DNA of 64,000 nucleotides, from positions 18,834,048 through 18,898,047 of the forward strand of contig OX387194.1 in assembly GCA_947561395.2 (NCBI GenBank), read 5' to 3'. This DNA comes from Buxus sempervirens. Lineage: Eukaryota > Streptophyta > Magnoliopsida > Buxales > Buxaceae. Position numbers and translations under genes: made by a program. Positions 13,083-63,838 of the stretch are shown here, piece after piece (position 1 is the stretch's first letter; each line of letters begins with the position of its first letter). Below the pieces are notes generated by a model that did no database searches, was not told the origin of the DNA, and was given only the letters and a program-made list of their open reading frames with translations.

Positions 13083-13726
13083 ACAAGATAAAAGGAGGCC
13101 TTATTCTACAGCAATGAAGAAGATCCTATTACTTCTAGAATTGAAGATAGAAAATAAAAGGGAAAAGGGACTTACTTGGATTGAGCAAGCAAAGCAGCAG
13201 GGATTCCTCTCTTCTCTTGGAGCTCCTTGGACTTCAAATTTTCGTGGTCTTTTGCTTGAGGAGAGCTCCTCTATTTATAGGCAAACACAGGGGTATGGCT
13301 GGTCCGGAAGGATATACCAGGATCTCCCCAGATTGGGTTAAAAATAAGGATAATGCCAATCCATTGCCAAATAGGATAAATAAGAAATTTCGAAGGGATA
13401 AATGAGAGAATTCGAATCTCTCAGAGAGATATTTGGGTGCAAATAAGGCTCCAAAATCGAGAAAGGATAAATTCTCACAAAAACCCCCATGCCCGTATAT
13501 ATATTACAGGCGCGCCCTGCCCGTATATATATTACGGGCGCGCCCTACCCGTATTATTAATACGGGCATGCCGTGCTCGTATATCAACTGCGGGCATGAC
13601 TAGACCGTAAACAAAATAAGGGCATGACTAGTTTGGCCAGATTTTATACTTTTTTAACCTGTTTCAAATCCCAATTAATATTTTCAATTATTTTCTCATT
13701 TTGTAGTGCAATTTGGGGTGTCTACA
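13083..13726 (-). mobile_element. Remaining 5' part of an Ogre-like LTR (subfamily B)
   Basis: It begins on the minus strand with TGTAGACACCCCAAATTGC at 13726. It matches 40380-40620 and 43606-43757 of the solo LTR at 39197-43757. It holds a TATA box at 13272-13279 (minus strand) and a splice-donor-like AAG/GTAAG-type site at about 13174. The rest of this LTR should lie off-window to the left, because the Tat-like element was inserted into it. Confidence 0.75.
13486..13620. repeat. Palindrome cluster upstream of the LTR promoter
   Basis: Four or so imperfect inverted repeats of the type CCCGTATATATATTACGGGC occur, with linker text GCGCGCC between them. They lie about 200-340 bp upstream of the TATA box in the minus reading. 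The same arm sequence recurs in a different LTR subfamily at 38597-38660 and 55059-55140. Confidence 0.75.
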
Positions 13727-13740
13727 CCAACCCATGTAGC

Positions 13741-14474
13741 TGTAAGCACCTCATTTTTGCACTTCCCAAAATGCAGAAAATGAAATTTTAATTGAAAAGT
13801 CAAACCTGAGAAAGTCAAGAGGTTGACTTTTTATCTGGTGCAAATCAGTCACCATACTTCTTACCATTGGAAAAAGGATTCCGATACGATTCTAATGAAA
13901 TTGAGTTTGATCAAATCGGAGTCCGAATGAAGAAGTTATGGACTGGTCAAATCTGAAAAAAACAAAAATCGACTTTCTGCTAAACCCCAGATCAACTACC
14001 CAATTTGATACCAACAGAAAGAGCATCTCGACACGATTCCAACGTAATTGAGTTTGCTGGAATCGGAGTTCCGGATAAGAAGATATGAGCAAAATTGGCT
14101 CCGGGACGGGACTCGGTGCTTCTGCTAAAAAAACCAAATTTGCTGTTAAACTCTAGCTCCATGGATAGAGGATGTTGATCCGGTTCCAATGCAACTAAGT
14201 TTGCCAAAATCGGAGCTCAAATGAGAGAGTTATGAGCAGTCCTAAGTCAAAAATAAAATGTTCATGTGGCAAAGTACGCCACATGGATGTCCCCCTTTCT
14301 TAACCCTTAAGTAAACAAAAATAATAATAATAAGGGTCTTTCTTAACCCCTAAGTAAAAAATATTAACAAAAGAGTCTTTCTTAACCATTAAATAAAAAA
14401 TAATAAGTCATAAGTAAGAAATAACAATAAAAAAGTCACTTTTGATAAAAATAATTAAAAAAGGTCTTTCTTAG
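13741..14474 (+). mobile_element. First piece of a plus-strand LTR split by the gag-only element
   Basis: It starts TGTAAGCACCTCATTTTTGC, the same start as the minus-strand LTRs ending at 3189, 34325, 44868 and 56744. It carries three diverged copies of the unit that is tandem in 2400-3110. It stops at 14474, where the next element begins, and resumes at 29769 after the duplicated CTTAG. Confidence 0.7.
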
Positions 14475-15042
14475 TGTAGACACCCCAAAATTGCACGATT
14501 TTTGATAAATCTTGAAGGAGAGAAATATTTTATTGGAATTTTCAATTCTTTGCATTGGGTTTGAGATCCTTAACCCATTTGAATCCAAAACCCTAAAGGA
14601 AAAGGCCCGAATTCAATCTTTTGTGCAAAGTAAAACTTTTTCCGGTTGAATTTTGTTGACTTTTGACCCCAGAAAATGAAATATTTTTTAAAGCAAGATT
14701 TCAAGATAATTTTTCCCGGTAATCAGGTTTTTAGCCATATTATTGCATAAAAGAATTTTTTGAGATTTTAAATCTTGACGAATACCTTGGTTTTAACATG
14801 TTGAATCTTTTTACCGGACCTGAAAAACCGGAATTTAGCTTGGAACTGGAAAGTTGACTTTTTATTCACTTGGAATTTGGCTCTGGAACTATTTTTGATG
14901 GATTCAAATAGGGGGTGTTTGCTTATTTACATGTAAAATCTTAAGTAAATGGAGATTAAAAAATACGATGACATTTACTTAAACGATATTACATGGAAAT
15001 AAGTATTGCATGTGTTAAAATTCGAATAAAAGCTTCTTTTTT

Positions 15043-15190
15043 TTGTATCCGATAGATAATGTCGGATACAAAGGATCTTTATTGTATCCGACAGATAATG
15101 TCGGATACAAAGGATCTTTATTGTATCCGACAGATAATGTCACATACAAAGAGAATTGCTTGTATCCGACCTGACATGTCGGATACAAGC
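15043..15190. repeat. TATCCGACA palindrome cluster in the 5' LTR
   Basis: Four inverted repeats with arms TGTATCCGACA and TGTCGGATACA around short spacers (GATAA, then CCTGACA-type in the last). They lie about 160-310 bp upstream of the TATA-like box. A matching cluster lies in the 3' LTR, in the minus-strand LTR at 58637-58783, and inside two elements. Confidence 0.9.
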
Positions 15191-15350
15191 TTTTTGCTCA
15201 AAATTAGGGTTTTCCGATAGTCTTAACTTTTTACCATCATATCCTTCATTAAAGGAATGGAAATCTCGGAAATAGCCTTAGGGTTAAGGTTGGTGGGCTA
15301 TAGACCTTATGTTGTGTCTACCATCTCACCAACCCTAACCCTAGCCTTTG

Positions 15351-15487
15351 CCTCTAAATAGGAGGCTCCTCCTTAAGCAAATGGCCATTAACTCTTGTCA
15401 TTAACTCTTGCCAAGAAGTTGGAGATCAAAGAGCTCCGAGTGAAGAGGGAAACCGCTGCAGTCTTGCTTCAAGAAGTCCAGGTAAGC
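15351..15487 (+). promoter_or_regulatory. LTR promoter and 5' splice-donor-like site
   Basis: A TATA-like CTCTAAATAGG lies at 15352-15362; the 3' LTR copy has the better TATAAATA at 27678-27685. The donor consensus CCAG/GTAAGC has its GT at 15482-15483, about 128 bp downstream. The 3' LTR has the corresponding AAGTAAG at 27805-27811. The position suits a leader exon ending inside the LTR. Confidence 0.6.
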
Positions 15488-17369
15488 CTCAAACCTCTCT
15501 TTACTTTTATGTTTTTTACATTCTAGGTCTAGTTCTCTTCTTCTACCTTTCTGTAGATTAAGGCCTATGATGTGTGTATGTAAACCCTTCCTCTACTCAA
15601 AGTATCTCAAGACTCCCCCTAGCCGTAAAACGTGAAGGCGAGATCTAGGTGAAACGAGACTAAGGATTGACCTTAGAGTTAGACCCTATTTGAATAAGCC
15701 TTGTGATTCTATGAAAACCGTTCCATATTCAAAGTACCCCAAGATTATCTTGAAGAACCGTGTTTAACGGGGAGAGAGAACTAAGGGAAACGATAATGGA
15801 ACGGAACCCTAGGTTGTTATAGAACCTTTTTTGTTGATCTAAATGCATGCTATTATGAGATAAGCCTTGTGATTCTATGAAAACCGTTTCATATTCAAAG
15901 TACCCCAAGATTATCTTGAAGAACCGTGTTTAACAGGGAGAGAGAACTAAGGGAAACGATAATGGAACGGAACCCTAGGTTGTTTTAGAACCCTATTTTG
16001 ATTGATATAAATGCATGCTATCTTTTCTATGTTGTTGGAATGATTCTTACACCTACACATACATAGCACGTGATTTTGGCGAGATAGGTTCATATGTCGG
16101 ATTTATTGCATTTATTGTGATAAATCTGAAATAAATAGCCCTAAGCAATTCTGGGATGTTTTGAAATGATTTTCAAAAGATTTTGACTCATCTTGCACGG
16201 ATCACACACCTCTTATCACTGTTTTGAGTTATTTTTATTCAAAAAAGGGTTAACTTGACAACAACTGTACCCCAACTTCGGATACTCGTAACTTCATCGT
16301 CCGGATGAATTTTAGAGTGATTCTTGAGCCATGGGAAAGGTGAGGCTGTCTAGTTTATGCCTGTAAAATTTCATTAATTTCTATCAAGCGGATTTTTGAC
16401 ACCTCTCTGTCGAAGTTGATAGGTCAGTTCAGATCTGAATACGAAACCTGTCACTTCGACTGAACACCATGTGTTCGTTTTAAGTCCGATTCAAGTGATT
16501 CTTGTTTCTGAGTTTTCCTTTGGAAGTCTAGTTTCAAATCCAGTTGGTTTCATATTTTTTTGACTCCATTTGTGTCGTGAGCAACAGATTTACTCAGAGA
16601 TATTCAACAACACTTTTCTGGGTAAATCTGTGATCTTCGGGGCCTGTTTGGGAGACCACCCAAGGCACATCCGAATGAATTTTGTATGAAGTTAGTTTCA
16701 TTTGAATGATGGCCATACAGACTTTTAATTATCTCCAGAAACAGACTTCAAAGGAGAATAACTCCTAGGATTTTAATCAGAATGGGTTGAAAATTTACAT
16801 GAGTCTTCTATCTATCATAATCTTTCAAATGAATTTGTTTTGATTCAATTTAAATTGGATTTGAATGATTTCAAGACAGATGGTTCTTGCTTTTACCGAA
16901 TTTTCCGGATTTAACTCAACTTGGTTTTGTGCAACTTTTGCTTTGCTTTCCATCTTTTGGTGATATTCCAGAAGTGATATTGACATAAAAGAGGATCTGG
17001 AATTCATTTGGATTTTCTTGTGAAGATATCATACATTTGTCCTTTTTCAAGGTTTTTAATGATTTTTAGCAAGCTTTCTTATTTTTTTAGCATGAACAAC
17101 ACTTGGCAACTACTTTGTGTGGGTGAATGGGGGTGCCTAACACTTTCCCCCGTTCATAATCTAATCCCCTTACCCATCTCTGGATTTGATTTTCAAGTAG
17201 AGTTATTTTTACTCTAGAATTTGTCTTTTAACTCTTTTGATTATTTTTGAATCTTTTGGTGTCCATTCACACCCCAAAATCTGAATGGTAGCGACTCTCC
17301 CATTTTAAGTTAAGCCCGTGTGTTGACGGAGGGGGAATCATCTCCAGTGATTTTTTCATGTCTCACAAC

Positions 17370-17387
17370 TGGCGACTCCGCTGGGGA
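17370..17387 (+). other. Primer-binding site
   Basis: TGGCGACTCCGCTGGGGA starts two bases after the LTR end. It has the form of a site complementary to the 3' end of a tRNA, TGG first. From memory, Ogre elements use an Arg tRNA with a site of this kind. The other gag-only element has a close variant at 54256-54273. Confidence 0.85.
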
Positions 17388-17639
17388 CTTGTGGATTTAA
17401 GCCATTTTGTGTATTTGTTCATGCTTTTCTTTACTTTTGAATGCTTGCTATTTCGCTTACTTTATTTGTGCATATTGTTGTATTTCAAATCAGATTGGGA
17501 TGCTTTGAAATTTATATGGATCAAGACATGTATGTGTTGCTTGATGTTGCCTAGAGATTGATTTAAGAGAAGCCTATCTTGAAGCATGATTTTGATGCAT
17601 TTGGTGATAACATGCTCTAATTTGAATTTTTAATGCCAT

Positions 17640-18345
17640 GGTTTGAACATAAAAATGAGGAGCATGAAATCTAGGAGTTCAGAATTTTTGGTGTATTCAA
17701 ACATGATTCCCATGAACAATGCTTTCTTGTGCTTAATGTTTTTTATGCCACGCCTTTGATTTGGGGTATAGGGGGACATAATTTGAGCATGAAAAAAATG
17801 AGCAAAAATCTGGAAATTCAGTAGCTATTTTGGAACTTTTCAAACATGTTCTCCCTAATTAAAACACCTCTTGTACCAAATTGTTAGTTGCTATATTTTA
17901 GGCTTCAATTTGGGTAGGAATAATGCATGTTGAGCACCAAAAATGAAGGATATAAAATCTGGAAATCTAGTGTGAATTTTGGGGGGTTTTCAAGCATGCT
18001 TTTTTGGATAGAAGCACTTTTGTACAATACATATAGTGGCTGTATGTTTAGGCTTACATTTGGGCATAAACAAGACACTTTAATCATGGAAATGAGACCA
18101 TAAAACCTAGAATTTGGTAGAGGTTTTGAGGGGTTTTTCAAGCATGTTCCCCGGTTAAAAGCTTCTTGTACAATGCATGTAGGTGCTATATTTTTAGGCC
18201 TTTAATTTGGAGGGTAAATGATACACTTTGAGCATGAAAAATAGCATGAAAATCTGGAATTTTAGGGAATGCTTTTGGGTTTTAAGCATGCCTCCATGGT
18301 TTAATTGCTGTTTTCACAAGATGATAACATGTTTGTATACCACTT
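17640..18345 (+). repeat. Old degenerate tandem repeat, period about 126-150 bp, five units
   Basis: The phrase GAGCATGAAAA...ATCTGGAAATT recurs near 17657, 17783, 17933, 18082 and 18231. It is followed each time by TTCAAGCATGYTY..., then CTTGTACAATGCATG and TGCTATATTTTTAGGC-type text. Units have drifted strongly. It is non-coding and forms part of the element leader. Confidence 0.65.
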
Positions 18346-19254
18346 TTTGGGCATGTAATACTTGTGTGCATATTTAGTTGCTTTGGCTCTCTTGCTTGCT
18401 TATGTTTTCTTCCAATATGATTGTCATATGCCTTGGCTTGGAATTGTATGCATTGCTACAAAAAAGAGTGGCAAGGGGCTGGGACGTTGTGAATGTACCT
18501 CAATTTTAAATGCACTTGAGCACTTTAAACTATTTGCACAACCTACCCATTACCTATAGGAAGTTGAACCCGAATGTGTGTAGCTTGGCGCACCGAGGTC
18601 GTTACTTCGGAAAGCGAAAGTAAAAACATTCACCTTAGAATTTGACTCAATGATGTGATGACAATGTGATCTGTGATTCGATTCCGGGCATCACTAGACT
18701 TGAGTTTTAAGTTGCCAATTAAACCAAAACCCAAAAACCATACGCTTGAAGGTAGAGAAACACGTTTTCAGCTAAAAGTACACAATTGCATTTGGGGAAT
18801 TGGGTGTAAGTGTGGGAAAGCCGTTTGCATGTTTCACAGGCCAAGGTATAATACCATATTGAAGGTAACACAAGGTGGCAAGGTAAAGCCATGTATTCTT
18901 TTTTTTATCATCTTCATGTGAATTAAAAGCCATGGTGTCCATATGCTTGGGATGAAATTTTTCCCAAAAGTGTATATAGCCTAAGGTTTGTGTAACCTAT
19001 AGGATGAGTTTCCAACTCAATTTAATAGTCATCCTACCCACAGTCCATGTAGGAGGCAACCAAGTGTACAAAATCCAAGGATTGGTGCATAACTTTGGTG
19101 GGTACAAGTACCCTCATGAATTTGGGAATTTTAGCAAGAATGATGTCAAAGCCCAATTTGGGGCAAGTTTTAAAGGCCAAGTCAAGGTGAACATCAAGTG
19201 GGAATGAAAATAACATAATCTGGTGAAAAAATGAGTCAAAAAGGGCCATTTCGG
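18346..19254 (+). other. Leader sequence without recognisable features
   Basis: Between the old tandem repeat and the palindrome cluster I see no gene, RNA gene or repeat. Short open frames on both strands have no family resemblance. Confidence 0.5.
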
Positions 19255-19402
19255 CCTTAACCGACAACTCAAGTCGGTTAAGAAGAATTTCATTCATATC
19301 CGGCATATATTATCGGTTACAAAGACCTATGCGTGTATACGACTAATTATATCGGATACAATAAGCCATAGCCTTATCCGACATTTCATGCCGGATACAT
19401 AC
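19255..19402. repeat. Second TATCCGACA-type palindrome cluster, in the leader
   Basis: It contains the pairs AACCGAC...GTCGGTT, ATCCGGCATATA...ATCGGTTA and TTATCCGACA...GCCGGATA. The arms are diverged versions of those in this element's own LTR. The cluster sits downstream of the primer site and directly before the minisatellite block. Confidence 0.75.
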
Positions 19403-19685
19403 AGAAAATGTGCAAATGGGTTTTTCAGCCCGAAATTTCAGAATAAAATGCCTAAAACACTGTGGATAATCCTTAGGCACCCCAAAAAGAACATAAAAAT
19501 GTTCCAAAAATAAAAAATAAAAACAAAAAACAAAAAATAAATAAATAAATAAAATATTCTTTCAGGATTTAACCTAATTTTGAAATTCATGAAGGCAAAC
19601 TAAGGTGTCATATTTTTTGATACCAATTCAATTCAAACATGTTTCAATCAAGCTTTTGAACTTGAAAACTGAGAAAATTCAGAAA

Positions 19686-20810
19686 AAAAAACACCTTTGG
19701 TTGGTTATTTTTATCAATCAAAATCAAAAATTTGTGGGACATTTGGAAGCCCCAGAATATTCCAAAAACCTTTGTTTGGTCACGAGAATCATTCAAAATC
19801 AAAACATTTGTGGGACACTTGGAAGCCCTGGAATATTCCAAGAAACCTTTGGTTGGTTATTTTTATCAATCAAATCAAAACATTTGTAGGACACTTGGAA
19901 GCCCTAGAATATTCCAAGAAACCTTTGGTTGGTTATTTTTATCAATCAAATCAAAACATTTGTGGGACACTTGGAAGCCCTAGAATACTCCAAGAAACCT
20001 TTGGTTGGTTATTTTTATCAATCAAATCAAAACATTTGTGGGACATTTGGAAGGCCTAGAATATTCCAAGAAACCTTTGATTGGTTATTTTTATCAATCA
20101 AATCAAAACATTTGTGGGATATTTGGAAGCCCTAGAATATTCCAAGAAACCTTTGGTTGGTTATTTTTATCAATCAAATCAAAACATTTGTGGGACACTT
20201 GGAATCCCTAGAATATTCCAAGAAACCTTTGATTGGTTATTTTTATCAATCAAATCAAAACATTTGTGAGACATTTGGAAGCCCTAGAATATTCCAAGAA
20301 ACCTTTGGTTGGTTATTTTTATCAATCAAATCAAAACATTTGTGGGACACTTGGAAGCCCCAGAATATTCCAAAAAAACCTTTGTTTGGTCACAAGAACC
20401 AATCAACTCAAAAATTTGTGGGACATTTGGAAGCCCCAGAATATTCCAAAAAAACCTTTGTTTGGTCACAAGAACCAATCAAATCAAAAATTTGTGGGAC
20501 ATTTGGAAGCTCCAGAATATTCCAAAAAACATTTGCTTGGTCACGAGAACCAATCAAATCAAAATTTTGTGGGACATTTGGAAGCCCCAAAATATTCCAA
20601 ACAAAAAAAAAAACCCCCCCTTTGCTTGGTCACAAGAACCAATCAAATCAAAAATTTGTGGGACATTTGGAAGCCCCAGAATATTCCAAAAAACCTTTGG
20701 TTGGTTATTTTTTCCAATCAAATCAAAAAATTTGTGGGACACTTGAAAGCCCTAGAATATTCCAAAAAAAACCTTTGGTTGGTCTTTTTCGTACCAATCA
20801 ATTGAATTTT
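19686..20810 (+). repeat. 76-bp minisatellite, about 15 units, each with a hairpin
   Basis: Spacing is exactly 76 bp over several units (for example 19929, 20005, 20081, 20157, 20233, 20309). Each unit has a TTGGTTGGTTATTTTTATCA-like half, or TTTGGTCACAAGAACCAA in later units, and then GTGGGACA followed by a hairpin. Its arms are YTTGGAA and TTCCAAR around the loop GCCCYAGAATA. Because 76 is not a multiple of 3 and no unit frame has a stop, long open frames appear in all three frames; these are by-products, not genes. Confidence 0.92.
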
Positions 20811-21475
20811 GTGGGCCATTTGAAAGCCTCTGAATTTCAAACATTAACCTATTTTGGGCCATCTATAAGCCTCTGAATTATAGACACATATCCTTTGGGC
20901 CGTCTAAAAGCCTCTGAATTTTAGATACGACCTTTTTGGGCCATTTGAAAGCCTCTGAATTTCAAACATCAACCTATTTTGGGCCATCTATAAGCCTCTG
21001 AATTATAGACACATATCCTTTGGGCCATCTAAAAGCCTCTGAATTTTAGACACAACCTTTTTGGGCCGTTTGAAAGCCTCTGAATTTCAAACATCAACCT
21101 ATTTTGGGCTGTCTATAAGCCTCTGAATTATAGACACATATCCTTTGGGCCGTCTAAAAGCCTCTGAATTTTAAACACAACCTTTTTGGGCCATTTGAAA
21201 GCCTCTGAATTTCAAACATCAACCTATTTTGGGCCGTCTGAAAGCCTCTGAATTTTAGACACAACCTTTTTGGGCCATTTGAAAGCCTCTGAATTTCAAA
21301 CATCAACCTATTTTGGATCGTCTATAAGCCTCTGAATTATAGACACATATCCTTTGGGCCGTCTAAAAGCCTCTGAATTTTAGACACAACTTTTTTGGGC
21401 CATCTATAAGCCTCTGAATTATAGACACGTATCCTTTGGGCCTTCTAAAAGCCTCTGAATTTTAGACATTTCTCA
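20811..21475 (+). repeat. About 42-bp hairpin minisatellite with 125-bp higher-order period
   Basis: About 16 units each hold GGGCC, a left arm, the invariant loop GCCTCTGAA and a right arm. Three arm types alternate: TTTGAAA/TTTCAAA, TCTATAA/TTATAGA and TCTAAAA/TTTTAGA. The three-unit cycle repeats every 125 bp (ATTTTGGGC at 20851, 20976, 21101). All arms stay complementary although their sequences differ. Confidence 0.9.
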
Positions 21476-21600
21476 TTCTTTGGGACCTTTGGAAGCCCTA
21501 AAATATTCCAACAACTTTTTGGTTGGTCTTTTTCGTATCAATCATTTTCATACCTTGTGGGACATGTTGGAAGCCCTAAAATATTCCAACAATTCTTTTA
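21476..21600 (+). repeat. Two closing units of the 76-bp-type hairpin repeat
   Basis: Two more units follow, with arms TTGGAA/TTCCAA, extended to GTTGGAA/TTCCAAC in the second, around the loop GCCCTAAAATA. Thus the 42-bp array is bracketed by 76-type units. Confidence 0.8.
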
Positions 21601-21707
21601 GCTCAAAAAAAAAATAACCAAAACAAAAAAAAACAAAACTCGTGTTCACTTAACTCACTTATCTACATTTATAGGTGTGTGACTAGGATTAAATTGGAGC
21701 TGACATG

Positions 21708-21726
21708 TTTCTTTTTCCTTCTCCAG
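21708..21726 (+). promoter_or_regulatory. 3' splice-acceptor-like site before gag
   Basis: A polypyrimidine run, TTTCTTTTTCCTTCTCCAG, ends about 51 bases before the gag start codon. Paired with the donor in the LTR (15482) it would define a leader intron of about 6.2 kb that contains the primer site and all minisatellites. The other gag-only element has an acceptor at the same distance from gag. Confidence 0.6.
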
Positions 21727-21777
21727 GTACACTTACTTGCAATCATTGCTCCCGTGACCAGATCCAAAGCTTGAGCA

Positions 21778-23430
21778 ATGAATACTGAAGAGAACCAAGC
21801 CCAAGCTACTGTCCCTACCCAGGACTTTGCTCAGCTGCAAGAGCAAGTGGCCGAACTAGCCAAGATGCTAGGAAACTTATTGGCGGCTCAGGCCCAGGCC
21901 CAAAACCAAGCCTCAACTTCCAATCAAGCACCACCACCTCAAGCCTACATTCCACCTCCAGCCCAACCCATACCTGAACCCATTTCTGAGTAAATCCCTG
22001 AGCCTATTTTGATTAGGGAAAATACTGTGGAGTATGAGAAAGAAATGGAAAAAGAAAAAGCTAGAGAGGAGATGGAAAGAAAAATGCTACACAAGATAGA
22101 GAGGATCCAAGAAGAACTCAAGGAGGTGAAGGGGGGAAACAGCTACGGAGGTACCACCTTCGATGACTTATGTATGTACCCAGATGTATGCCTACCGGCC
22201 AAGTTCAAATGCCGGGATTTTGACAAATATGATGGCACGGGCTGCTCAATGAGCCACTTGAAACTATACTGCGGGGCTTTGTGCCAGTTTGGCCAGGATG
22301 ATGGCATACTGATCCAACTCTTCCAGAGGAGTTTGACAGGATCGGCTCTGAGGTGATTTGCCACAATTGATCATGGGAAGATTAGAGGATGGAAGGACCT
22401 GGCAGACGCCTTCTTGGACCAATACAAATTTAACTCGGAGATCGTGCCAGACCAGTACGACATGATGAGGATGAGCAAGGGAAAGGAAGAATCCATAAGG
22501 CAATATGCCAAGAGGTGGAGAGAGGTTGCCTCCCAGGTCAGGCCGCCTATGTTGGAGCATGAGATGATCTCGACGTTCGTGGGTACACTGGGGCAGCCCT
22601 TCTACAATCACCTGGTGGGTCAGATCACCACCAATTTTGCTGCCTTGGTACAAGTGGCCGACCGGATTGAGGATGGGATCAAATCTGGCAAGATAATTGA
22701 TTATTTCGCCATGATCAGTCAACAAGACTCCACTCATAACAAGGGAAATGGTAATGGAAAGAAAAATTCTGAGGAAAGGAGAGAAGCAGAAGTGAATATG
22801 GTGCAGCTTCCCAAGGGACCCGTTCAAATCAATGCCCATCCAGTTCCTTTGCTGCCTATCCAAATTAATGTCCCTTCTGCACAGCCTGTGAAGGAGGAAA
22901 CAGAAGTAAGGAAGAGAAGGGAGTTTTCAAAACTGCCTATGAGACCATCTGAACTTTTGCCTACCTTACTTCAAAAGGGTTATGTGACTTTGAGGTTGCC
23001 AAATCCTCATGCAAGCAAGGGAAAGGGTTATGATCCGTCTGGTATCTGTGAGTATCATATGAGCACTCCAGGGCATACCACTGATCGTTTCTTGGCCCTA
23101 AAGCACGAAATTCAGGATTTGCTAGATAATAACTCTTTATCATTGAATTCAGTCACACCCACTCCTCCTCCCACCAGCAACAATGGGGCTGGTAGCTCAA
23201 ATGCAATAGGGGCAATTTTCTCTAGAGAAAGAAGATTTGACCCTTCTCAACTTATTGCTCTTATAGGGTCAACTGTCTGGGTTTATTTTGAAAAAGAAGA
23301 AGAACAAGAAAATATGATGGGTGGAGAAGAAAAAAAGAATGAAGAAGAAGAAGGAAAAAAAATAGCCAAAAGAAGAAAAAATGGTGCAGATGACCATGAC
23401 TACACTGCAAGAGCGATCAATGCAAGGTGA
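21778..23430 (+). pseudogene. gag of the gag-only element
   Basis: The N-terminal 70 residues are Gln/Ala/Pro-rich with a short helix (AQLQEQVAELAKMLGNLLA). A capsid-like core follows: LPAKFKCRDFDKYDGTG, then QLFQRSLTGSAL, FLDQYKFNSEIVPDQYDMM, ESIRQYAKRWREVASQV and FVGTLGQPFYNHLVGQI. Then comes a zinc-binding-like C-x2-H motif (CEYHMSTPGHTTDRF) and the closing FDPSQLIALIG. The order and motifs match the gag at 49556-51217. It has a few breaks and is treated as a fossil. A Lys/Glu-rich tail runs on after 23280. Confidence 0.88.
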
Positions 23431-26400
23431 TGTAAAGATTGTTCTAGGGCAGAATATTCTATAAGAAGTCAGTACACACAATGGGGCAGAGTCGATTGAG
23501 AAAGAAGGATGGCAAAGAAAGAATGGGGGTGTTTTCGAAGAAAAGAAAGAGGCAAAGGGTGAATTCATTTTGCCACACATTGATTGGACAGTCATCCAAG
23601 TTCCAGATCAAGTAACGTCACTTCTTCCAAGGGCTGAGCATGATGTCCTAAATATGAAGGCAATGGCTGATCAAAGAAAGGAATTCTTGCCTCAACCAGC
23701 AGAAGATGAAATTTTTTGCAAAAATGGAAAAAAAATCAACTTTTGCCTTTGAGAACAGGGGCAATTTTCGAATTCCCACATCCTCTGAAAAGAAACCCCC
23801 ATAAGAAGAATGCACATTTCCTGAGGATCCTAAGGAGCCTTGTTCTCAGGAAGTGATTTTAATAAAGGCTCTTCAAAAAAAAAAAAAAAGGTTTTCCTTT
23901 AAGATTTTCGTAGAAAAAAAAATGATTTTCCCCTTTTACATTTTTCTTTAAAAAAAAAAAAGTTTTCAACAAGGTCCTGTTTTACTTATGAGTTATATCT
24001 CCCATTGAATTTCATCAAGTTGAATATGACTTCGACATTGGGCTCAATCTTGAGACCAAAATCGAAGAAAAAGACATTTTATATGAAAATTCAAATCCTT
24101 TTAAGTGTCATGAGAAGAATATTCTACAAAATTATGAAGTGACTAATTTTATGGCCTTTGGAACCAAAGATGACCCACAGCCTTCAACAGAAAAGATAGA
24201 AGAAGATTTGATGTTTCTTCATTAGAATACAGAAAGGATCGCATCACTTGCTGATTCGTTCAAAGGGAAGTTGATAATATTGTTTGAAGAAATTTTGGGG
24301 CTTTGCACTTGAAAATATGGGAGAAGATTTGACCTTTTCGTTGGAAATAGAATTGGGCATCATTTGATGGAAACAATCCAAATCCATAAGATTGATCAAA
24401 AGGTGAAGAACTTGTTCATAACAGAGGTTCTATTTGAAGAGGCTTTCATGTTGACAAAAGTTGATTAAAAAAAAAGAAAAAAAGAAAAAAAAGGAATGAA
24501 GGAAAAATCCTGAGCCAGTCATGTAGTGCAACTCTACCAAGTCTGAAAATTCAAACTTTTCTTAAAATGATAAGAGGCCTTTCTTTCTTATATCCCCAAA
24601 ATTTTGAAATCCCTAGTTAGACCCTTTGAGATTGATAAATTCTTCCAAGTGATCTAAACTGAGAATTGTAACCCCACACTGGGGCAAATTTATTAAGGCA
24701 AAAAAAAACAAGGGAATGAAGGGGCATTATTGAAGTTTAAAAGGGATTTTGAAGATGTTTTATGAAAAGGGGGCAAAGAAATTAAAAAAAAACGGAAGAA
24801 AGAAGAAAAAGATATCATCAAATGCCATATCTTCAAAATTGTGAAGGGAAGAGTGAGAAAAGAAGTTTGATACTGGGGAATAAGTTCAAATGAAGAAATC
24901 AAAGTAGGGGAAGAACTTCATTACTGGGGGCATTTTTGTATTCATTCCAAAGAAAAAAATGCCTTAAGATTTGCAATTTCAATTAACCTATTTAATCATA
25001 TGGTATTTAAGCCTTTTATTCCTTTTCTTTCTAAACAAACACCAAGTCTTCATTTCGTCCCATTCATAAGGCCTCTTTGATTAAGAAATTTTGAATTAAG
25101 GCAGTTTTGACTACATAGTTGCTGGTGATGAAGGATTAAAAAAAAAGAAAAAAAGAAAAAATGGAGAAAATGTAGTGAAAACCCGGAAGGGCGCTACATG
25201 GCAAATAATCAGCTATCTACAAGAAGGAAATCGTCAGAGAGGAAAGTCCGGAATCGGCATAGATCCAGGTGAAGTCCTCATGTTGGTGGTTATTTTGAGA
25301 TACAGTCACTTTTCGAGTGATTGAGGAAAATTCTCTTTTCAAGACTGAAGCAACATAATCAGAACTAGGATATGAATCATCTGTGAAAAAGTTGATGGCC
25401 ATCAAAATTGCCATTAGGAAATTATTGCTGAAGTTGAAGTCATAAATTCTCATATCATGGATACAATGTAGAAACAATTGCTCTTCAATTGGATGAAGGA
25501 AAATGTCTTTCTAGTCTGGGGCAAAATAGTCAGATTGAAAGAGTTGTCATATCTGGAGCATCAATTGACAAGCTGATGGTCATGGGGACGATTCTAAAGG
25601 TTCCAAAGGCTTATTTTGGTCTTTCTTTATTTTCTGAAATAATCTTCTCATTATTCAACTTGATTTTAATTCTTTTGGATTATATGCTAATAAGTGATTG
25701 GATCATTTTTCAAAAAAAAAATAAAAACTCAAAAAGCAAAAAACTATATTTTTGGCCTACGATGAGCATCTATGTCTTTTCATGAAAACATTGGTTTTGC
25801 AAGCATTAGAGAATTCTGAAGCCACTAGTATAAAACATATTTTCTGATTTTTGCATTTGCATTCTTTTATCAGGGTTTCTTTTTGGCAAAATTAAAAAAA
25901 ATAAAAAAATAAAGAGAAAAAAAAAAGAAAAAAAGAGAAAAAAGAAAAAGGAAAAAAAGAAGAAGGGATTATCTCTGCTGAGGGGCAAGTACTTCTTCAA
26001 GCAACCAAAATCGGGGCATGCTCAGAGTCTTTCCCTCTGGGTTTTCATTGAAATAAATTATAGCATCTGGAAGAAGCAGTCAGGCCTTAGTCTTCGGATT
26101 TGAAAAAAGAAGAAGCTTCGAAGCAGTTGCATGTTTTCTCCTTTAAACAAAGGTTTCCAATTCTAAAGAAGGATTTTACTGGAGCAGTAAGAAGGCATGA
26201 ATGAGAGGTCATGGGTTGTAAGGGCATGAGGTTAGATCAACAGATCATGATTTTCAAATCCATCAATCAAGAAGAGGCATTCACTTGGGCAGTTGAAAAG
26301 AATGAAGGCAGGCTATGGGCAGCAATGGCACATACATCCTTATTGAGAGAGCAGGAAGATAAAGAAGCAAAAGCAAGTTACAGAATATTCAAGCACATGT

Positions 26401-26777
26401 TCGGGCATCAAATGGCACCCAGGTAAATCAAATAAGAAAATCAATCAGGAAAATTCAATAAAATATTTCCTTCCTTATTGTTGAAAAACATCAAAAGCAA
26501 TTGAGTTTGCAGAGGTCAATTTTAAATCCACATTATTTTCAAAATTTGCTTGTCTCAAATTTCATTTCATAGTCACGAGAGCTCAAAGAAATCTGAGATA
26601 AGGAAGGGATGCCACCCCGTCAGACTATAAACAGAAGGGGTTTTATTGGCTATCTTCAAATCCATGTTTTTTATCACTCATTTGTTTGATCAAAGCAAGT
26701 TTAATTAACGAGGAGTCTTTTAAACTTGCAATTTTGAGTTGTGTCTATTCTTTGCTGTTCGTTGTGCTACAACTCTA
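23431..26777 (+). other. Post-gag non-coding remnant of the gag-only element
   Basis: AT-rich, with many A-runs and AAAAAAGAAAAAG-type purine tracts (24470-24500, 25140-25160, 25893-25965). No pol motif was seen on either strand. Phrases of the form CTGGGGCAAA recur (24680, 25515, with variants near 24866 and 24923). The equivalent region of the other gag-only element has their complements. The stretch 26560-26620 resembles 59045-59095 on the opposite strand, in the 3' internal part of the right-hand element. Confidence 0.6.
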
Positions 26778-26792
26778 GCAAAGAGGGGCAGT
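26778..26792 (+). other. Polypurine tract
   Basis: GCAAAGAGGGGCAGT lies directly before the 3' LTR. The same tract borders the minus-strand LTRs at 44869-44885 and 58882-58897. It is the usual plus-strand primer of LTR elements. Confidence 0.88.
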
Positions 26793-29763
26793 TGTAGCCA
26801 CCCCAAAATTGCACGATTTTTTATAAATCTTGAAGGAGAGAAATATTTTATTGGAATTTTCAATTCTTTGCATTGGGTTTGAGATCCTTAACCCATTTGA
26901 ATCCAAAACCGTAAAGGAAAAGGCCCGAATTTAATCTTTTGTGCAAACTAAACTTTTTCCGGTTGAATTTTGTTGACTTTTGACCCCAGAAAATGAAATA
27001 TTTTTTCAAGCAAGATTTCAAGATAATTTTTCTCGGTAATCAGGTTTTTAGCCATATTATTGCATAAAAGAATTTTTTGAGATTTTAAATCTTGACGAAT
27101 ACCTTGGTTTTAACATGTTGAATCTTTTTACCGGACCTGAAAAACCGGAATTTAGCCTGGAACTGGAAAGTTGACTTTTTATTCACTTGGAATTTGGGTC
27201 TGGAACTATTTTTAATGGATTCAAATGGGGGGGGGGGGGGTGTTCGCTTATTTACATGTAATATCTTAAGTAAATGGAGATTAAAAAATACGATGACATT
27301 TACTTAAACGATATTACATGTAAATAAGTATTGCCTGTGTTAAAATTCGGATAAAAGCTTCTTTTTTTTGTATCCGACAGATAATGTCGGATACAAAACA
27401 TCTTTATTGTATCCGACAGATAATGTCGGATACAAAGGATATTTATTGTATCCGACAGATAATGTCGGATACAAAGAGAATTGCTTGTATCCGACCTGAC
27501 ATGTCGGATACAAGCTTTTTGCTCAAAATTAGGGTTTTCCGAGAGTTTTCACTTTTTACCATCATATCCTTCATTAAAGGAATGGAAATCTCGGAAATAG
27601 CCTTAGGGTTAAGGTTGGTGGGCTATAGACCTTATGTTGTGTCTACCATCTCACCAACCCTAACCCTAGCCTTTGCCTATAAATAGGATGCTCTTCCTTA
27701 AGCAAATGGCCATTAACTCTTGTCATTAACTCTTGCCAAGAAGTTGGAGATCAAAGAGCTCCGAGTGAAGAGGGAAACCGCTGCAGTCTTGCTTCCAGAA
27801 GCCCAAGTAAGCCTCAAACCTCTCTTTACTTTTATGTTTTTTACATTCTAGGTCTAGTTCTCTTCTTCTACCTTTCTGTAGATTAAGGCCTATGATGTGT
27901 GTATGAAAACCCTTCCTCTACTCAAAATATCTCAAGACTCCCCCTAGCCGTAAAACGTGAAGGCGGGATCTAGGTGAAACGAGATTGAGGATTGACCTTA
28001 GAGTTAGAACCTATTTGAATAAGCCTTGTGATTCTATGAAAACCGTTCCATATTCAAAGTACCCCAAGATTATCTTGAAGAACCGTGTCTAACGGGGAAA
28101 GAGAACTAAGGGAAACGATAATGGAACGGAACCCTAGGTTGTTCTAGAACCCTTTTTTGTTGATCTAAATGCATGCTATTATGAAATAAGCCTTGTGATT
28201 CTATGAAAACCGTTCCATATTCAAAGTACCCCAAGATTATCTTGAAGAACCGTGTTTAACAGGGAGAGAGAACTAAGGGAAACGATAATGGAACGGAACC
28301 CTAGGTTGTTTTAGAACCATATTTTGATTGATATAAATGCATGCTATCTTTTCTATGTTGTTGGAATGATTCTTACACCTACACATACATAGCACGTGAT
28401 TTTGGCGGAATAGGCTCATATTTCGGATTTATTGCATTTATTGTGATAAATCTGAAATAAATAGCCCCAAGCAATTCTAGGATGTTTTGAAATGATTTTC
28501 AAAAGATTTTGATTCATCTTGCATGGATCACACACCTTTTATCACTGTTTTGAGTTATTTTTATTCAAAAAAGGCTTAACTTGACAACAACTGTACCCCA
28601 ACTTCAGATACTCGTAACTTCATCGTCCAGATGAATTTTGGAGTGATTTTAGAGCCATGGGAAAGGTGAGGCTGTCTAGTTTATGCCTGTAAACTTTCAT
28701 TAATTTCTATCTAGCGGATTTTTGACACCTCTCTGTCGAAATTGATAGGTTAGTTCAGATCTGAATATGGAACCTGTCACTTCGACTGAGCGCCATGTGT
28801 TCGTTTTAAGTTTGATTCAAGTGATTCTTGTTTCTGAGTTTTCCTTTGGAAGTCTAGTTTCAAATTCATTTGGTCTCATATTTTTTTGACTCCATTTGTG
28901 TCGTGAACAACAGATTTACTCAGAGCTGTTCAACAGCACTTTTCTGGGTAAATCTGTGATCTTCGGGGCCTGTTCGGGAGACCACCCAAGGCACATCCGA
29001 TTGTATGAGGCTAGTTTCATTTGAAAGATGGCCATACAAACTTCACTCACACCAAATTTCATGGATTTATATGGAGCCGATTTTTCTAAATGATTTTCCA
29101 AATTTGCCCACTTATCACTTTTAATTATCTCCAGCAGCAGATTTCAAAGGAGAATAACTCCTAGGATTTTAATAGGAATAGGTTGAAAATTTGCATGAGT
29201 CTTATATCTATCATAATCTTTCAAATGAATTTGGTTTGATTCAATTTAAATTGGATTTGAATGATTTCAATACAGATGGTTCTTGCTTTTACCGAATTTT
29301 CCGGATTTAACTCAACTTGGTTTTGTGCAACTTTTGCTTTGATTTCCATCTTTTGGTGATATTCCAGAAGTGATATTGACATAAAAGAGGATCTGGAATT
29401 CATTTGGATTTTCATGTGAAAATATCATACATTTGTCCTTTTTCAAGGTTTTTAATGATTTTTAGCAAGCTTTCTTTTTTTTTTAGCATGAACAACACTT
29501 GGCAACCACCTTGTGTGGGTGAATGGGGGTGCCTAACACCTTCCCCCGTTCATAATCTAATCCCCTTACCCATCTCTGGATTTGATTTTCAAGTAGAGTT
29601 ATTTTTACTCTAGAATTTGTTTTTTAACTCTTTTGATTATTTTTGAATCTTTTGGTGTCCATTCAGACCCCAAAATCTGAATGGTGGCGACTCTCCCATT
29701 TTAAGTTGAGCCCGTGTGTTGACGGAGGGGGAATCATCTCCGGTGATTTTTTCATGTTTTAAA
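26793..29763 (+). mobile_element. 3' LTR of the gag-only element
   Basis: It aligns by eye with 14475-17367 along its whole length. It has a TATA box at 27678-27685, a donor-like site at 27807 and the palindrome cluster at 27368-27514. A run of 14 G at 27227-27240 replaces a run of 5 G in the 5' copy. It is followed by the target duplication CTTAG. Confidence 0.9.
27368..27514. repeat. TATCCGACA palindrome cluster in the 3' LTR
   Basis: Four inverted repeats as in the 5' LTR. The third unit differs slightly from its 5' counterpart, but the arms remain complementary. Confidence 0.9.
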
Positions 29764-29768
29764 CTTAG

Positions 29769-30480
29769 CCATTAAGCAACCTCTCCTATAAAAGGGGAGG
29801 GGGAGGGATGCTCCAACCCAAGCAAGCTGACCCCCTCTTGATCCCCCATCTCTCCCAAGCTCTCTTGATCTCCTCAAACACCCTTCTTCTCCATCTCTCC
29901 AAAAACACTCCACCCTACCTCTCTATTCTTCCCTCCTTCTTCATCCGCACCACTTGGAAACTAGAAGGAGTCCAAAAGAGCTACTGTTGGTGTGGGGAAG
30001 TGCTGCTCCAACAACTACTCTGGCTTCAAGGAGGATCAATCACACCTCTTTAGGGTTTGTAAATCCCAAGGTAAGGTCCCCCACCACTTTCTAGTGTACG
30101 TATATAAAAATGAGTTCTTTATAATTACGTGGGATGTTATTCCTCCTTAACTTGGTGTTCTCTTTATTTCTAGCACGATTAGTACCTTGTCTCTCCCTTT
30201 TCCATTTTTATGTTGGGCGTGGGAAATTCCCATGGTAAGGGGAGGGTGTATGGACAGCTCCAAAGGTGGATGAGTTCCATTTGGGCTTGGTTCTAATGGA
30301 CTTTAGGGTATTGTCTTGTTACTAATTGTCTCATTCGACTGGGGGAGTATGTTCCCCCTTGTTTGCTCAACCATTGTATCCTGTTAACTCCCCTCTTGCC
30401 CCTTCTCTTGCTTGGTTTTGCATCTTGGATTTATGGGTGTTGAAATATACCATTTGTGCATCATGGCTACTTGTTTAGAT
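29769..30480 (+). mobile_element. Second piece of the split plus-strand LTR
   Basis: It continues the LTR begun at 13741. It has a TATA box TATAAAA at 29787-29793, a CT-rich leader, then the donor-like CCCAAG/GTAAGG (GT at 30070). It matches the reverse of 32900-33460 in the solo LTR, including CCAAGGTAAG, ATATAAAAATG and GGTAAGGGG. The right end is not clear; similarity fades after about 30480. Confidence 0.6.
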
Positions 30481-31282
30481 TTAAGTTACTTATTAGCATA
30501 TATTTTGGAAGCATGTGTTTTCCCATGTCACCTATTATGATCCCATTTAGTTGCTGCTAGAGATGATGACATGTATCCCTTCTCACTTTTCTTCAGACAC
30601 ACACACCAAGCATGTTCATGTGTATTAGTCCCATGTTATGATCCCCACTCTCCCTAGTTACCATTTTGTTCATCTAAAGCATGTCCATGCATATGCACAT
30701 GCACATACTCATTAGAACCCCACCAGCCATCTCATGGCACACATAAACACACACTCAAAACCTTGGATAGGTTTCTTAGATTATGTTACATGCATTGTAG
30801 ACCCTTAACTTATTTTTTTCAGAGAGTTCTAAACAATGAACACCATTTATCTTGGTGCCTCTTTGTTGTTACTTTTTGTACCCTGCTCCTTTTTAGCTTA
30901 AAATGAACCTGGGTTATGCAAATGATAACAATAATAATCATTTTGTTTATCTGTACAATAATAATGTGTTGTCCCAAGGCTACCAAGTAGTTGGAGTACA
31001 CAATAATAATCCTATGTTGCCATCCCAAACTATTGAAAACCATTGATTTTTTTCAGCTTATGTTCTTATAGGCCATTTCAATTCCATAATCACTTGCAAA
31101 ATTTTGTTTTGTCAAATAAAATGGATGCTCCTAAACTGTGTTTTGCCACAGATCCATTCATATTGTAATATCTATTAGCTATTTGTTTGTCTTCCTCATT
31201 CTGTTGTATTTCTAGATGCCTTAAAGCTTAGAGGTAGTAGGACTTTGTCAATGCTGTATATTTCTTGTATTTGAAACCTTGA
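30481..31282. other. Unassigned AT-rich stretch
   Basis: I find no gene, repeat or LTR text here that I can support. It may be the rest of the split LTR or host intergenic DNA. AATAATAATC-like phrases recur near 30930-31005. Confidence 0.4.
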
Positions 31283-32372: not shown

Positions 32373-32545
32373 GGTATAACCGAAATTGAATTTCGGTTAT
32401 ACCAAGAATGCAGTATGACCGAAATTAAATTTCGGTCACACTGTATTCATTGCACAGAACACTGTTCAATTTCGGTTATACCAAGAATGCAGTATGACCG
32501 AAATTAAATTTCGGTCACACTGTATTCATTGCACAGAACACTGTT
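32373..32545. repeat. ACCGAAATT palindromes, downstream cluster, tandemly duplicated
   Basis: Pairs ATAACCGAAATT/AATTTCGGTTAT and TGACCGAAATT/AATTTCGGTCA occur in a block of about 90 bp that is present twice. The outer base pair changes from A-T to G-C with pairing kept. The cluster lies downstream of the TATA box and donor in the minus reading. Confidence 0.85.
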
Positions 32546-51499: not shown

Positions 51500-52390
51500 T
51501 CTCCTTTTCACCTCCACTTCGGAGGTAAGGAAAGAAGATTTCTAAATATGATTTCCTTCAACTGCAACTTCGAAGGTTGACCGCCACTTCGGAGGTAAGG
51601 AAAAGGACTGCCACTTCGGAGGTAAGGAAAGAAGATTTTTGAAAATGATTTCCTTCAACCGCCACTTCGAAGGTTGACCGCCACTTCGGAGGTAAGGAAA
51701 AAGACCGCCATTTCGGAGGTTGGCCTCCACTTCGGAGGAAAGATCCCTTTTAACCGCCACTTCGGAGGTAAAGGGGGAGAAGATCCCTAGAAATTATTTC
51801 CTTCAACCGCCACTTCGGAGGTTGACTGCTACTTCGGAGGTAAGGAAATAATCTCTGAAAATGATTTCCTTCAACCGTCACTTCGGAGATTGACCGCCAC
51901 TTCAGAGGTAAGGAAAAGGACCGCCACTTCCGAGGTTGGCCTCCACTTCGGAGGAAAAATCCCTTTTGACCTCCACTTCGGAGGTAAAGGGGAAGAAGAT
52001 TCCTGGAAATTATTTCCTTCAACCACCACTTCGGAGGTTGACCGCCACTTCGGAGGTAAGAAAATAATCTCTGGAAATGATTTCCTTCAACCGCCACTTC
52101 GGAGGTGAGGAAAAGGACCGCCACTTCGGAGGTAAGGAAAAGATTTCTGGAAATGAATTCCTTCAACCGCCACTTCGGAGGTTGACCGCCACTTCGGAGG
52201 TAAGGAAAATGATGATTTTCAAATCGCTACTTCGGAGGTAAAGATTTTTGGACCGCCACTTCGGAGGTAAGGAGAAAAGATTTTTTTGGACCGCCACTTC
52301 GGAGGTCATGAGAAAAGATTTTGTTTTGGACCGCCATTTCGGAAGTTAAGGTAGAAGATTAAAACCGCCATTTCGGAGGTAAAGAAAGAA
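51500..52390 (-). repeat. CTTCGGAGGT minisatellite in the leader
   Basis: More than 30 copies of CCGCCACTTCGGAGGT and variants occur, joined by TTGA, AAGGAAAAGGA or GATTTCCTTCAA spacers. Some units form perfect 6-bp hairpins (ACCTCC, loop ACTTC, GGAGGT); most have one mismatch in the stem. A loose higher-order period of about 120-140 bp is visible. Open frames in it are by-products of the repeat. Confidence 0.9.
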
Positions 52391-56744: not shown

Positions 56745-58881
56745 CCTCTTTTATATCAATATCACTTCTGGAATATCACCAATAAATGGAAATCAAAGCA
56801 AAAGTTGCACAAAACCAAGTTGAGTCAAATCCAGAAAATTCGGTTAAAAGCAAGAACCATTTGTCTTGAAATCATTCAAATCTAATTTAAATTGAATCAA
56901 ACCAAATTCATTTGAAAGATTATGATAGATAGAAGACTCATGCAAATTTTCAATCCATTCCGGTTAAAATCCTAGGAGTTATTCTCCTTTGAAATCTGCT
57001 GCTAGAGATAATTAAAAGTGACTAGTGGGCAAGTTTGGAAAATCATTTAGAAAAATCGGCTCCATATAAATCCATGAAATTTGGTTTGAATGAAGTATGT
57101 ATGGCCATCTTTCAGATGAAACTAGCCTCATACAAAAATTCATTCGGATGTGCCTTGGGTGACCTCCCGAACAGGACCCGAAGATCACAGATTTGCCCAG
57201 AAAAGTGCTGTTGACCAGTTCTGAGTAAATCTATTACCCACGACACAAATGGAGTCAAACAATTATGAGACCAACTGGATTTGAAACTAGACATCCAAAG
57301 GAAAACACAGAAATAAGAATCATTCGAATCGAACTTAACACGAACACATGGCGCTCCGTCGAAGTAACAAGTTCCGTATTCAGACCTGAACTGACTTATC
57401 AACTTCGACAGAGAGGTGTCAAAAATCCGCCTAATAGAAATTAATGAAATTTTACAGGCATAAACTAGACAGCCTCACCTTTCCCATGGCTCTAGAATCA
57501 CTCCAAAATTCATCCGGACGATGAAGTTACAAGTCTCCGAAGTTGGGGTACAATTGCTGTCAAGTTAAGCCTTTTTTGAAGAAAATCAACTGAAACAGTG
57601 ATAAAGTGTGTGGAATCCGTCCAAGATAAATTAAAACCATTATGAAAAGATATTGAAGAACCTCTAGGAAGAAATGAGGCACAAGTTCGGCTCACCATCC
57701 TCTCCGATTGGAAAGGATATGCCAAAAACCCCAAAATTGAGCAAAAGTGCCCAAAACCGAGATGTTAGACCTAGAGGTCTTCAAGATTTGAAATAAACTT
57801 GATTGAAATCGATAACGAACATTCCAGAATTGCTTGGGGCTATTTATTTTAGATCTACCACAATGACGGCAATAGATCCAAAATACAAGCCAAATTCGAC
57901 GAAACAAGTGTTATGTGTGTATGTGTAAAAATCCATTCTTTAACAATATAATAACATATAGCATGCATTTAAATCAATCAAATGGGGTTCTAAAACAACC
58001 TAGGGTTCCGTTCCATTATTGTTTCCATTAGTTCTCTCTCCCCGTTACACACGGTTCTTCAAGATAATCTTGGAGTACTTTGAATATGAAACGGTTTTCA
58101 TAGAATCAAAAGGCTTATTCCAACAAGGTTCTAACACTAGGATCAATCCCCAGTCTCGTTTCCCCTAGATCCCGCCTTCATGTTTTACTGCTAGGGGGAG
58201 TCTCGAGGTACTTTGAGTAGGGGAAGGGTTTTCATACACATAGAAGAGGCCTTATTCTACAGAAAGGTAGAAGAAGAGATCTAGATCTAGAATGTAAAAA
58301 CAGAAAAATAAAGAGAGGTTTGAGGCTTACCTGGGCTTCTGGAAGCAAGACTGCAGCGGTTCCCCTCTTCACTCGGAGCTCTTTGATCTCCCACTTATGG
58401 CAAAAGTTCTTTGCAAAAGTTGTTGGCAAGAGTTAATGGCCATTTGCTTAAGGAGGAGCCTCCTATTTATAGGCAAAGGCTAGGGTTAGGGTTGGTGGGA
58501 TGGTAGACACAACATAATGTCTAGAGCCCACCAACCTTAACCCTAAGGCTATTTCCGAGATTTACACTCATTTAATGAAGGATATGATGGTAAAAAGTGA
58601 AAACTCTCGGAAAACCCTAATTTTGGGCAAAAATCATGTATCCGACATATCAGGTCGGATACACAAGCCTCTATATGTATCTGACATATGATGTCGGATA
58701 CATTAAGGCCTGCTCGTATCTGACAACTTATGTCGGATATGAAGAGGTATGCTTGTATCCGACCTGAGTTATCGGATACAAGGAAAAATGCGCATTTCTC
58801 AAATTTTGTGCTGGTTTCAAAGGAGATAATGATTCTTGCCAATTATTCGTCATTTTTACTGTGCAATTTAGGATTTCTACA
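56745..58881 (-). mobile_element. 3' LTR of the outer element, right piece
   Basis: Reverse complement of about 14490-16990. TATA box at 58464-58471, donor-like CCAG/GTAAGC at about 58329, minus-strand start TGTAGAAATCC at 58881. It begins with the second CCTCT. Confidence 0.88.
58637..58783. repeat. TATCCGACA palindrome cluster of the outer element's LTR
   Basis: Four inverted repeats of TGTATCCGACA type, including one where both arms changed together (ATCTGACAT...). They lie about 170-320 bp upstream of the TATA box in the minus reading. Confidence 0.88.
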
Positions 58882-59437: not shown

Positions 59438-59452
59438 TCTTTTGTATCCGAC

Positions 59453-59509
59453 ATTTTTGGTCGGATAAGAAAGGTTTCGCTTGTATCCAACATTTTCTGT
59501 CGGATACAT
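59453..59509. repeat. TATCCGACA palindromes upstream of the antisense PMD gene
   Basis: Two inverted repeats, TGTATCCGACA/GGTCGGATA and TGTATCCAACA/TGTCGGATACA, use the same arms as the LTR promoter cluster, but within the internal region. Confidence 0.85.
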
Positions 59510-63692: not shown

Positions 63693-63838
63693 TGTATCCG
63701 ACATATCAGATCAGATACATTGAACCTTCCTTGTATCCGGCATGTTATGTCGGATACACATGACTTCTTTTGTATCCGGCATTGTTCATCGGATATGAAG
63801 AGAGGCCTTTGTATCCGGTCTGATATAGCGGATACATT
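63693..63838. repeat. TATCCGRCA palindrome cluster after the PMD gene
   Basis: Four inverted repeats with TGTATCCGRCA-type arms, some diverged. It lies immediately upstream of a plus-strand TATA box at 63848. Confidence 0.85.

Follow-up and report, generated by a model that had tools for sequence, protein, structure and literature searches.

The window, a stretch of 64,000 nucleotides of Buxus sempervirens DNA, contains an LTR retrotransposon with tandem arrays of short hairpins between its 5′ LTR and gag. The element comprises the following features.

14475-29763, plus strand: whole LTR retrotransposon, with paired LTRs, target duplication CTTAG and a gag domain
14475..17367, plus strand: 5′ LTR of 2,893 bp, preceded by the CTTAG target duplication at 14470-14474
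15039..15188, plus strand: 39-bp array in the 5′ LTR, its unit a 12-bp hairpin TTGTATCCGACA/TGTCGGATACAA; also at 27364-27513 in the 3′ LTR
17368..17388, plus strand: primer-binding-site-like sequence, directly abutting the 5′ LTR
19693..20810, plus strand: 76-bp array with hairpin 1 and hairpin 2 in each unit (repeat search, unit parse)
20811..21480, plus strand: 41/43-bp hairpin array of 16 units, with the linker to the next unit (tandem-repeat search and unit parse)
21481..21590, plus strand: two more 76-type units, downstream of the 41-bp array
21712..21726 (21701-21726 in a wider reading), plus strand: pyrimidine tract followed by AG, a candidate 3′ splice site 51 bases upstream of the gag ATG
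21778..23430, plus strand: gag, with Pfam Retrotrans_gag on 22357-23430 (4.7e-06)
23431..26790, plus strand: internal region with no pol seen in a six-frame Pfam scan
26793..29763, plus strand: 3′ LTR, followed by the CTTAG target duplication at 29764-29768

The two LTRs are 95.7 and 96.6% identical over two aligned pieces (5′ LTR against 26793-29757), and a purine-rich tract lies upstream of the 3′ LTR. The primer-site-like sequence at 17368..17388 is possibly of tRNA-Arg type, as in the Tat/Ogre lineage of Ty3/gypsy, to which elements are assigned by RT, RH and INT phylogeny; no tRNA gene for comparison with it is found within the 64-kb window. The Retrotrans_gag match reaches 27.2 bits against a cut-off of 24.1. 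In the window copy, gag is interrupted by in-frame stops at 21991-21993 and 22354-22356 (stop-to-stop frames), and longer gag open frames occur in many other copies of the family. The window copy, at least, looks non-autonomous, because six-frame scans of 23431-26790 reveal no pol domain: protease, reverse transcriptase, RNase H and integrase give no Pfam match above cut-off in this region of the window copy, and one sub-threshold match is to DUF3796.

An acceptor-like site can be located in 35 of the 40 family loci described below, with the AG retained in 31 of the 35 and a mean pyrimidine share of 0.89, while candidates for a splice donor amount to three short motif matches. It is possible that the acceptor-like site is a 3′ splice site, which would place the arrays inside an intron of the gag mRNA. 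The upstream leader (17363-19692) contains 73 ATG triplets, or 31 per kb against 20.6 expected from base composition, and the arrays of the window copy contain none. A reading of the ATG-free arrays as a sign of ribosome scanning was rejected; AGT, GAT and GTA are about equally rare there (40 loci), and ATG scarcity is uninformative because the repeats contain few words.

The array at 20811-21480 (TRF score 917) has periods of 41 and 43 bp within a higher-order unit of 125 bp, and its units follow the order ABC ABC ABC A(G-T) ABC BC. All 16 share the loop GCCTCTGAA. Five units are of type A, with arms TTTGAAA/TTTCAAA, and five of type B, with arms TCTATAA/TTATAGA; the five type C units have the 5′ arm TCTAAAA, paired in four of them with the 3′ arm TTTTAGA. 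Between the three types, stem pairs 2, 4 and 5 (counted from outside) differ on both sides. The unit at 21230 (TCTGAAA/TTTTAGA) forms a G-T pair. The first-pass annotation, made from the letters alone, had described about 16 units with an invariant loop and three arm types, three stem positions altered on both sides and one G-T unit, all in the leader of an element; each of these points is borne out, the array lying upstream of gag in the retrotransposon at 14475-29763. Absent from that description is a C-A mismatch in the type C unit at 21146, whose 3′ arm is TTTTAAA.

The neighbouring 76-bp array carries two hairpins per unit. Hairpin 1 consists of YTTGGAA, an 11-nt loop (GCCCYAGAATA in most units) and TTCCAAR. 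In most units hairpin 2 consists of TTTGGTTGGT, a variable loop, and ATCAATCAAA or ACCAATCAAA. Hairpin 1 looks like kin of the 41-bp hairpin because its loop is similar and its position after TGGG[AC]C is identical, and the 41-bp array is most readily taken as hairpin 1 alone having expanded inside an older 76-bp array. With the 76-bp array as query, at least 103 matches are found in the genome (among the best 40 of 1158 candidates), so that the array is repeated there. Matches to hairpin 1 number 446 and occur in all 40 family loci, at least 6 of them being misread 41-type units; mismatched forms are common, the outer pairs are often mismatched, and the inner pairs show no lean towards G-U (40 loci).

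Other copies of the element were sought in a genome assembly of 676 Mb in 247 contigs. The sample comprises 40 copies (L009-L048), namely the window's own and 39 others; these are the best 40 of 1317 candidates and are biased towards close relatives. The array is present in all 40 by construction, because the copies were found by array similarity. They contain 1003 matches to the loop, of which 963 were accepted as units by their similarity to the types and 40 were dropped as lying more than three arm letters away from every type. Paired arms, which the first-pass annotation had seen in the window, recur in the other family copies: with the array itself given by construction, 805 of the 963 units in the 40 copies are perfect A, B or C hairpins. 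The number of units per locus ranges from 14 to 54, with a median of 21 (40 loci), and the same three arm types are common to the sampled copies. A same-strand gag match lies 801-997 bases downstream of the last loop in 35 of the 40 loci; none is found in L013, L021, L024, L029 and L034.

Departures from the three types are partly inherited. A C-T mismatch (TCTACAA/TTTTAGA) forms the last unit of 5 loci, and a C-C mismatch (TCTAAAA/TTTTACA) is shared by 4 loci. The base before the 5′ arm varies between G and A in two types, being other than G in 24% of B units and 36% of C units, with its partner C nearly fixed. The B/C hybrid TCTATAA/TTTTAGA accounts for 17 units in 9 loci, and the reverse hybrid (C/B) has 22 exact matches genome-wide. 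Hybrids, whose 5′ and 3′ arms come from different types, are the expected product of exchange inside the shared loop, yet they are few: 22 units, as against 243 non-canonical junctions among 808 adjacent pairs, or 13 against 90 when each kind is counted once per locus. This suggests that pairing is kept, although the comparison is only suggestive because inherited junctions are counted many times.

The first-pass annotation had held that pairing seems to be maintained, as free drift would break the arms, and had named a covariation test as one means of checking this. The test set comprises 19 hairpin forms of at least 8 units each, giving 133 cells, and includes hairpins of the 76-type, whose loops were trimmed and made alike because MAFFT placed no gap in them. 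Standard pairs fill 93.2% of the 133 cells compared to 80.4% in shuffles, and the covariation score is 0.478 compared to 0.216; neither value is reached in any of 500 shuffles. The number of cells changed on both sides likewise lies above all 500 shuffles (19 forms), and slid versions of the arms are at most 54.4% paired. When the 76-bp hairpins are included, four of the seven stem pairs change on both sides. Matched changes affect three pairs within the 41-bp array, with six further Watson-Crick pair types, by hand count, when the 76-bp hairpins are included. The test thus supports pairing on three measures and falls short on two: the number of pairs with both sides changed and the number of pair types show no excess over shuffles, 207 and 390 of the 500 being as high.

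A tree of the 462 unique units gives a paired fraction of 0.968, compared to a mean of 0.684 and a maximum of 0.851 in 300 re-placements. The same tree, on a genealogy scrambled by recombinant units, contains no double change on a single branch of the kind that compensation would leave. Per column, parsimony counts 7.3 and 7.6 changes for the two arms, 12.6 for the loop, and 25 and 21.5 for the two flanks, so the arms are about three times less variable than the flanks, where counts are raised by type-specific linkers. Part of the pairing signal is therefore low arm variability, not compensation. Because four of seven pairs change on both sides and the arms vary less than the flanks, it is probable that pairing was preserved during the element's mobile period. 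The claim of maintenance is upheld in so far as it draws on matched changes, low arm variability and mostly perfect units, and is weakened by the small number of independent events.

Thermodynamic folding gives a divided picture. Dinucleotide shuffles fold as well as the complete array (sense z -0.41, antisense z +1.04, 20 shuffles each), and at 25 C single 41-bp units are likewise no more stable than shuffles (z 0.13, -0.93 and -1.63 on the sense strand). The longest stem of the array's unit is rarer in shuffled units, with p values of 0.010, 0.025 and 0.030 for the 125-bp, 84-bp and 41-bp readings, uncorrected for the 35 array readings tested. The mean pairing probability of the stems is 0.60, compared to 0.24 in 20 arm-swapped controls (range 0.12-0.37), and it is only against this arm-swapped control that the stems pair more. 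Rfam returns no match at gathering score in 14000-30500.

A constraint acting on the sense RNA is expected to tolerate G-U more than A-C. Among arm transitions in the 40 loci, those making G-U outnumber those making A-C by 53 to 37 variant-locus pairs (p 0.11). A to G changes (32) exceed T to C changes (12), and G-C pairs drift about equally both ways, with C to T at 21 and G to A at 25. In the unpaired flanks of the 40 loci the same changes stand at 83 to 58 and in the loop at 61 to 74. Genome-wide, exact patterns with G-U compared to A-C number 18 and at most 16 at pair 1, about 132 and 71 at pair 2, 42 and 16 at pair 3, and 18 and 13 at pair 4; these matches share ancestry, are not independent of one another and cover arm sites only, with no unpaired control, and the figure of about 132 is an estimate from 135 matches, 3 of the 100 listed being changed on both sides. 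Downstream of the array, in an alignment made noisy by 836 transversion singletons, C to T and G to A are equal, at 57 singletons (0.182 per site) and 55 (0.172) respectively; A to G and T to C, at 0.326 and 0.356 per site, are nearly equal. This region thus shows no strand bias, but the unit flanks do lean, and strand-biased mutation may still lie behind the G-U lean.

The best sign of action at the RNA level comes from hairpin 2, and it is a hint: one stem is retained with different loops, and it includes G-U pairs, which are available to the sense strand alone. Across 337 segments parsed of 349, the stem persists around the loops TATTTTT (197), CACGAGA (37), CTTTTTCGT (33) and others. Pair 5 is G-U in 254 of the 337, T-T in 55 and C-T in 6, and pair 9 is divided between G-U (160/337) and G-C (162/337); T-T occurs at pair 10 in 55 of the 337 and C-A at pair 1 in 56. 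In 286 of the 349 segments the fold is more stable on the sense strand (mean -7.53, vs -4.42 on the antisense strand). Against shuffles, two forms have sense z values of -2.42 and -2.68 and a third -1.50, uncorrected for nine sequences on two strands. As one ancestral arrangement, hairpin 2 counts as one observation.

The best explanation, which we hold tentatively, is that pairing in the sense RNA of the leader was selected while the family was active, the arms having changed mostly in matched steps. Unit number would be free to vary by exchange, within the observed 14-54 per locus. Less surely, the hairpins may have offered the RNA numerous equivalent docking sites that share one loop, for a partner RNA or, most plausibly, for packaging Gag. 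Docking of Gag would perhaps help an element dependent on enzymes made elsewhere. A role of the hairpins in Gag binding, dimerisation or packaging, as raised in the first-pass annotation, is a guess. Selection on the sense RNA has against it the 41-bp units and array that fold like shuffles, the G-U lean of the unpaired flanks, the mismatches within hairpins 1 and 2, the inherited mismatched units and the lack of same-branch double changes.

The main rival is template switching between the two arms in the course of reverse transcription or replication, in which a mutated arm is copied onto its partner, unequal exchange spreads the resulting unit, and pairing is a by-product without function. 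We consider this somewhat unlikely. It has a published mechanism in RNA hairpins (PMC8794818), and hairpin arrays of unrelated sequence recur in the window. Two pairs at once separate types A and C, and one-step intermediates are nearly absent: TCTG[AT]AA with TT[AT]CAGA is found in none of 18 matches, and TTTA[AT]AA with TT[AT]TAAA in 3 among the 100 listed of 135. Such scarcity is as compatible with one template-switch event as with intermediates that died out. The step from C to B exchanges A-T for T-A, which no G-U step can bridge. On the other hand, beyond the three types there is no pair-restoring double change in the 963 units (40 dissimilar matches having been dropped), and such changes must therefore be infrequent in inserted copies. 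Template switching alone also leaves unexplained both hairpin 2, whose arms have G-U pairs and are imperfect copies of each other, and the lower variation of the arms compared to loop and flanks. This rival corresponds to the alternative raised in the first-pass annotation, that one arm is copied from the other. Template-switch copying could also supply the mutations on which selection acts.

A founder effect is unlikely. Three or four good ancestral hairpins would have been multiplied by tandem exchange, so that the covariation reflects descent and the low arm variation reflects youth and homogenisation. The same three types in the sampled copies fit such a history, as do the lack of same-branch double changes on the unit tree and the near-equal drift of G-C pairs to G-U and A-C (C to T 21, G to A 25). 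Matched differences at four of seven pairs, together with the re-placement test, are hard to obtain by unconstrained drift, and loop and flanks of the very same units are more variable. If hairpins generally tend to give rise to tandem repeats, this would agree with the rival explanations too. It is very improbable that the inverted repeats are DNA-level dyads, putative protein-binding or cruciform sites as proposed for the LTR palindromes of Sireviruses. Those are tandem repeats of palindromic form that have been compared to transcription activators (PMC2829016), and the 39-bp LTR palindromes here look similar to them. Yet a binding site should keep its arms and free its spacer, whereas here the arms change and most of the 9-nt loop is kept.

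A wider form of selection on the sense RNA is quite doubtful when taken as a whole. In an enzyme-less plant retrotransposon, the leader might carry up to about 50 interchangeable constant-loop hairpins, a multivalent array kept paired by selection on the sense RNA and competing for Gag or partner RNAs by the number of sites, in which case unit number would be an evolving trait. If the units are kept as RNA hairpins, some tandem repeats of plant retrotransposons would be functional parts of the element. The large series of natural variants (14-54 units in 40 sampled loci) could separate RNA selection from template-switch copying, a question general to RNA hairpins.

Tandem repeats in plant retrotransposons have mostly been traced to abnormal replication and regarded as a starting point for satellite DNA (PMC7004042). 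They are described in the 3′ untranslated regions of Ogre (PMC7004042), between pol and the 3′ LTR in Retand (PMC11963269) and in the expanded non-coding regions of non-chromoviruses (PMC6317226). Like the present array, the Tat/Ogre and Retand repeats form short tandem arrays that vary in length and occupy non-coding stretches of large Ty3/gypsy elements in plants (PMC7004042, PMC11963269). As described, those arrays follow the coding region or separate pol from the 3′ LTR, whereas the array here precedes gag and is built of hairpin units with matched arm changes. Sirevirus motifs are likewise tandem dyad-symmetric repeats of a plant LTR retrotransposon, described as placed within the LTR ahead of the TATA box, or else close to the env-like gene, with a CGG-CCG core in all but one element; here, in contrast, the array lies in the leader, the loop is kept and the arms change (PMC2829016). 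Ty1 kissing hairpins and retroviral packaging signals are also stem-loops of the 5′ untranslated region, sometimes extending into gag, and their function is rescued by restored pairing (PMC5454406). They are single-copy and functionally tested, whereas here dozens stand in tandem and are known from sequence alone (PMC5454406); unlike that of the Ty1 kissing hairpins, the loop here is not self-complementary by eye. Template-switch hairpins share the multi-base matched changes of the arms and are discussed for rRNA and microRNA, the words retrotransposon and reverse transcription being absent from that paper (PMC8794818). Among titles and opening lines of abstracts listed from an open-access library, no description of tandem leader hairpins with matched arm changes was found, and the excerpt on wheat Fatima elements (PMC3129301) holds nothing on leader repeats.

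Most of the 35 array readings in the window show no excess of hairpin units over shuffles. In the 39-bp LTR arrays, the 12-bp stem is matched in length by none of 200 shuffles. Units of 39 bp built on the 12-bp palindrome also occur in LTR-like pieces at 58636-58781, 59442-59509 and 63720-63837; across all these arrays and those of the LTRs, some units have their outermost pair changed on both sides (ATGTATC/GATACAT) and others are mismatched. The array at 51510-52360 consists of CCGCCACTTCGGAGGT-like units of changing spacing, with a stem no longer than in shuffles. Stems of 7 bp are found in the arrays at 13490-13584 (p 0.01) and 58676-58763 (p 0.025). The array at 32374-32545 has the hairpin unit ACCGAAAT/ATTTCGGT with a stem of 8-10 bp (p 0.01 or less), and its 79-bp unit is present in two identical copies.
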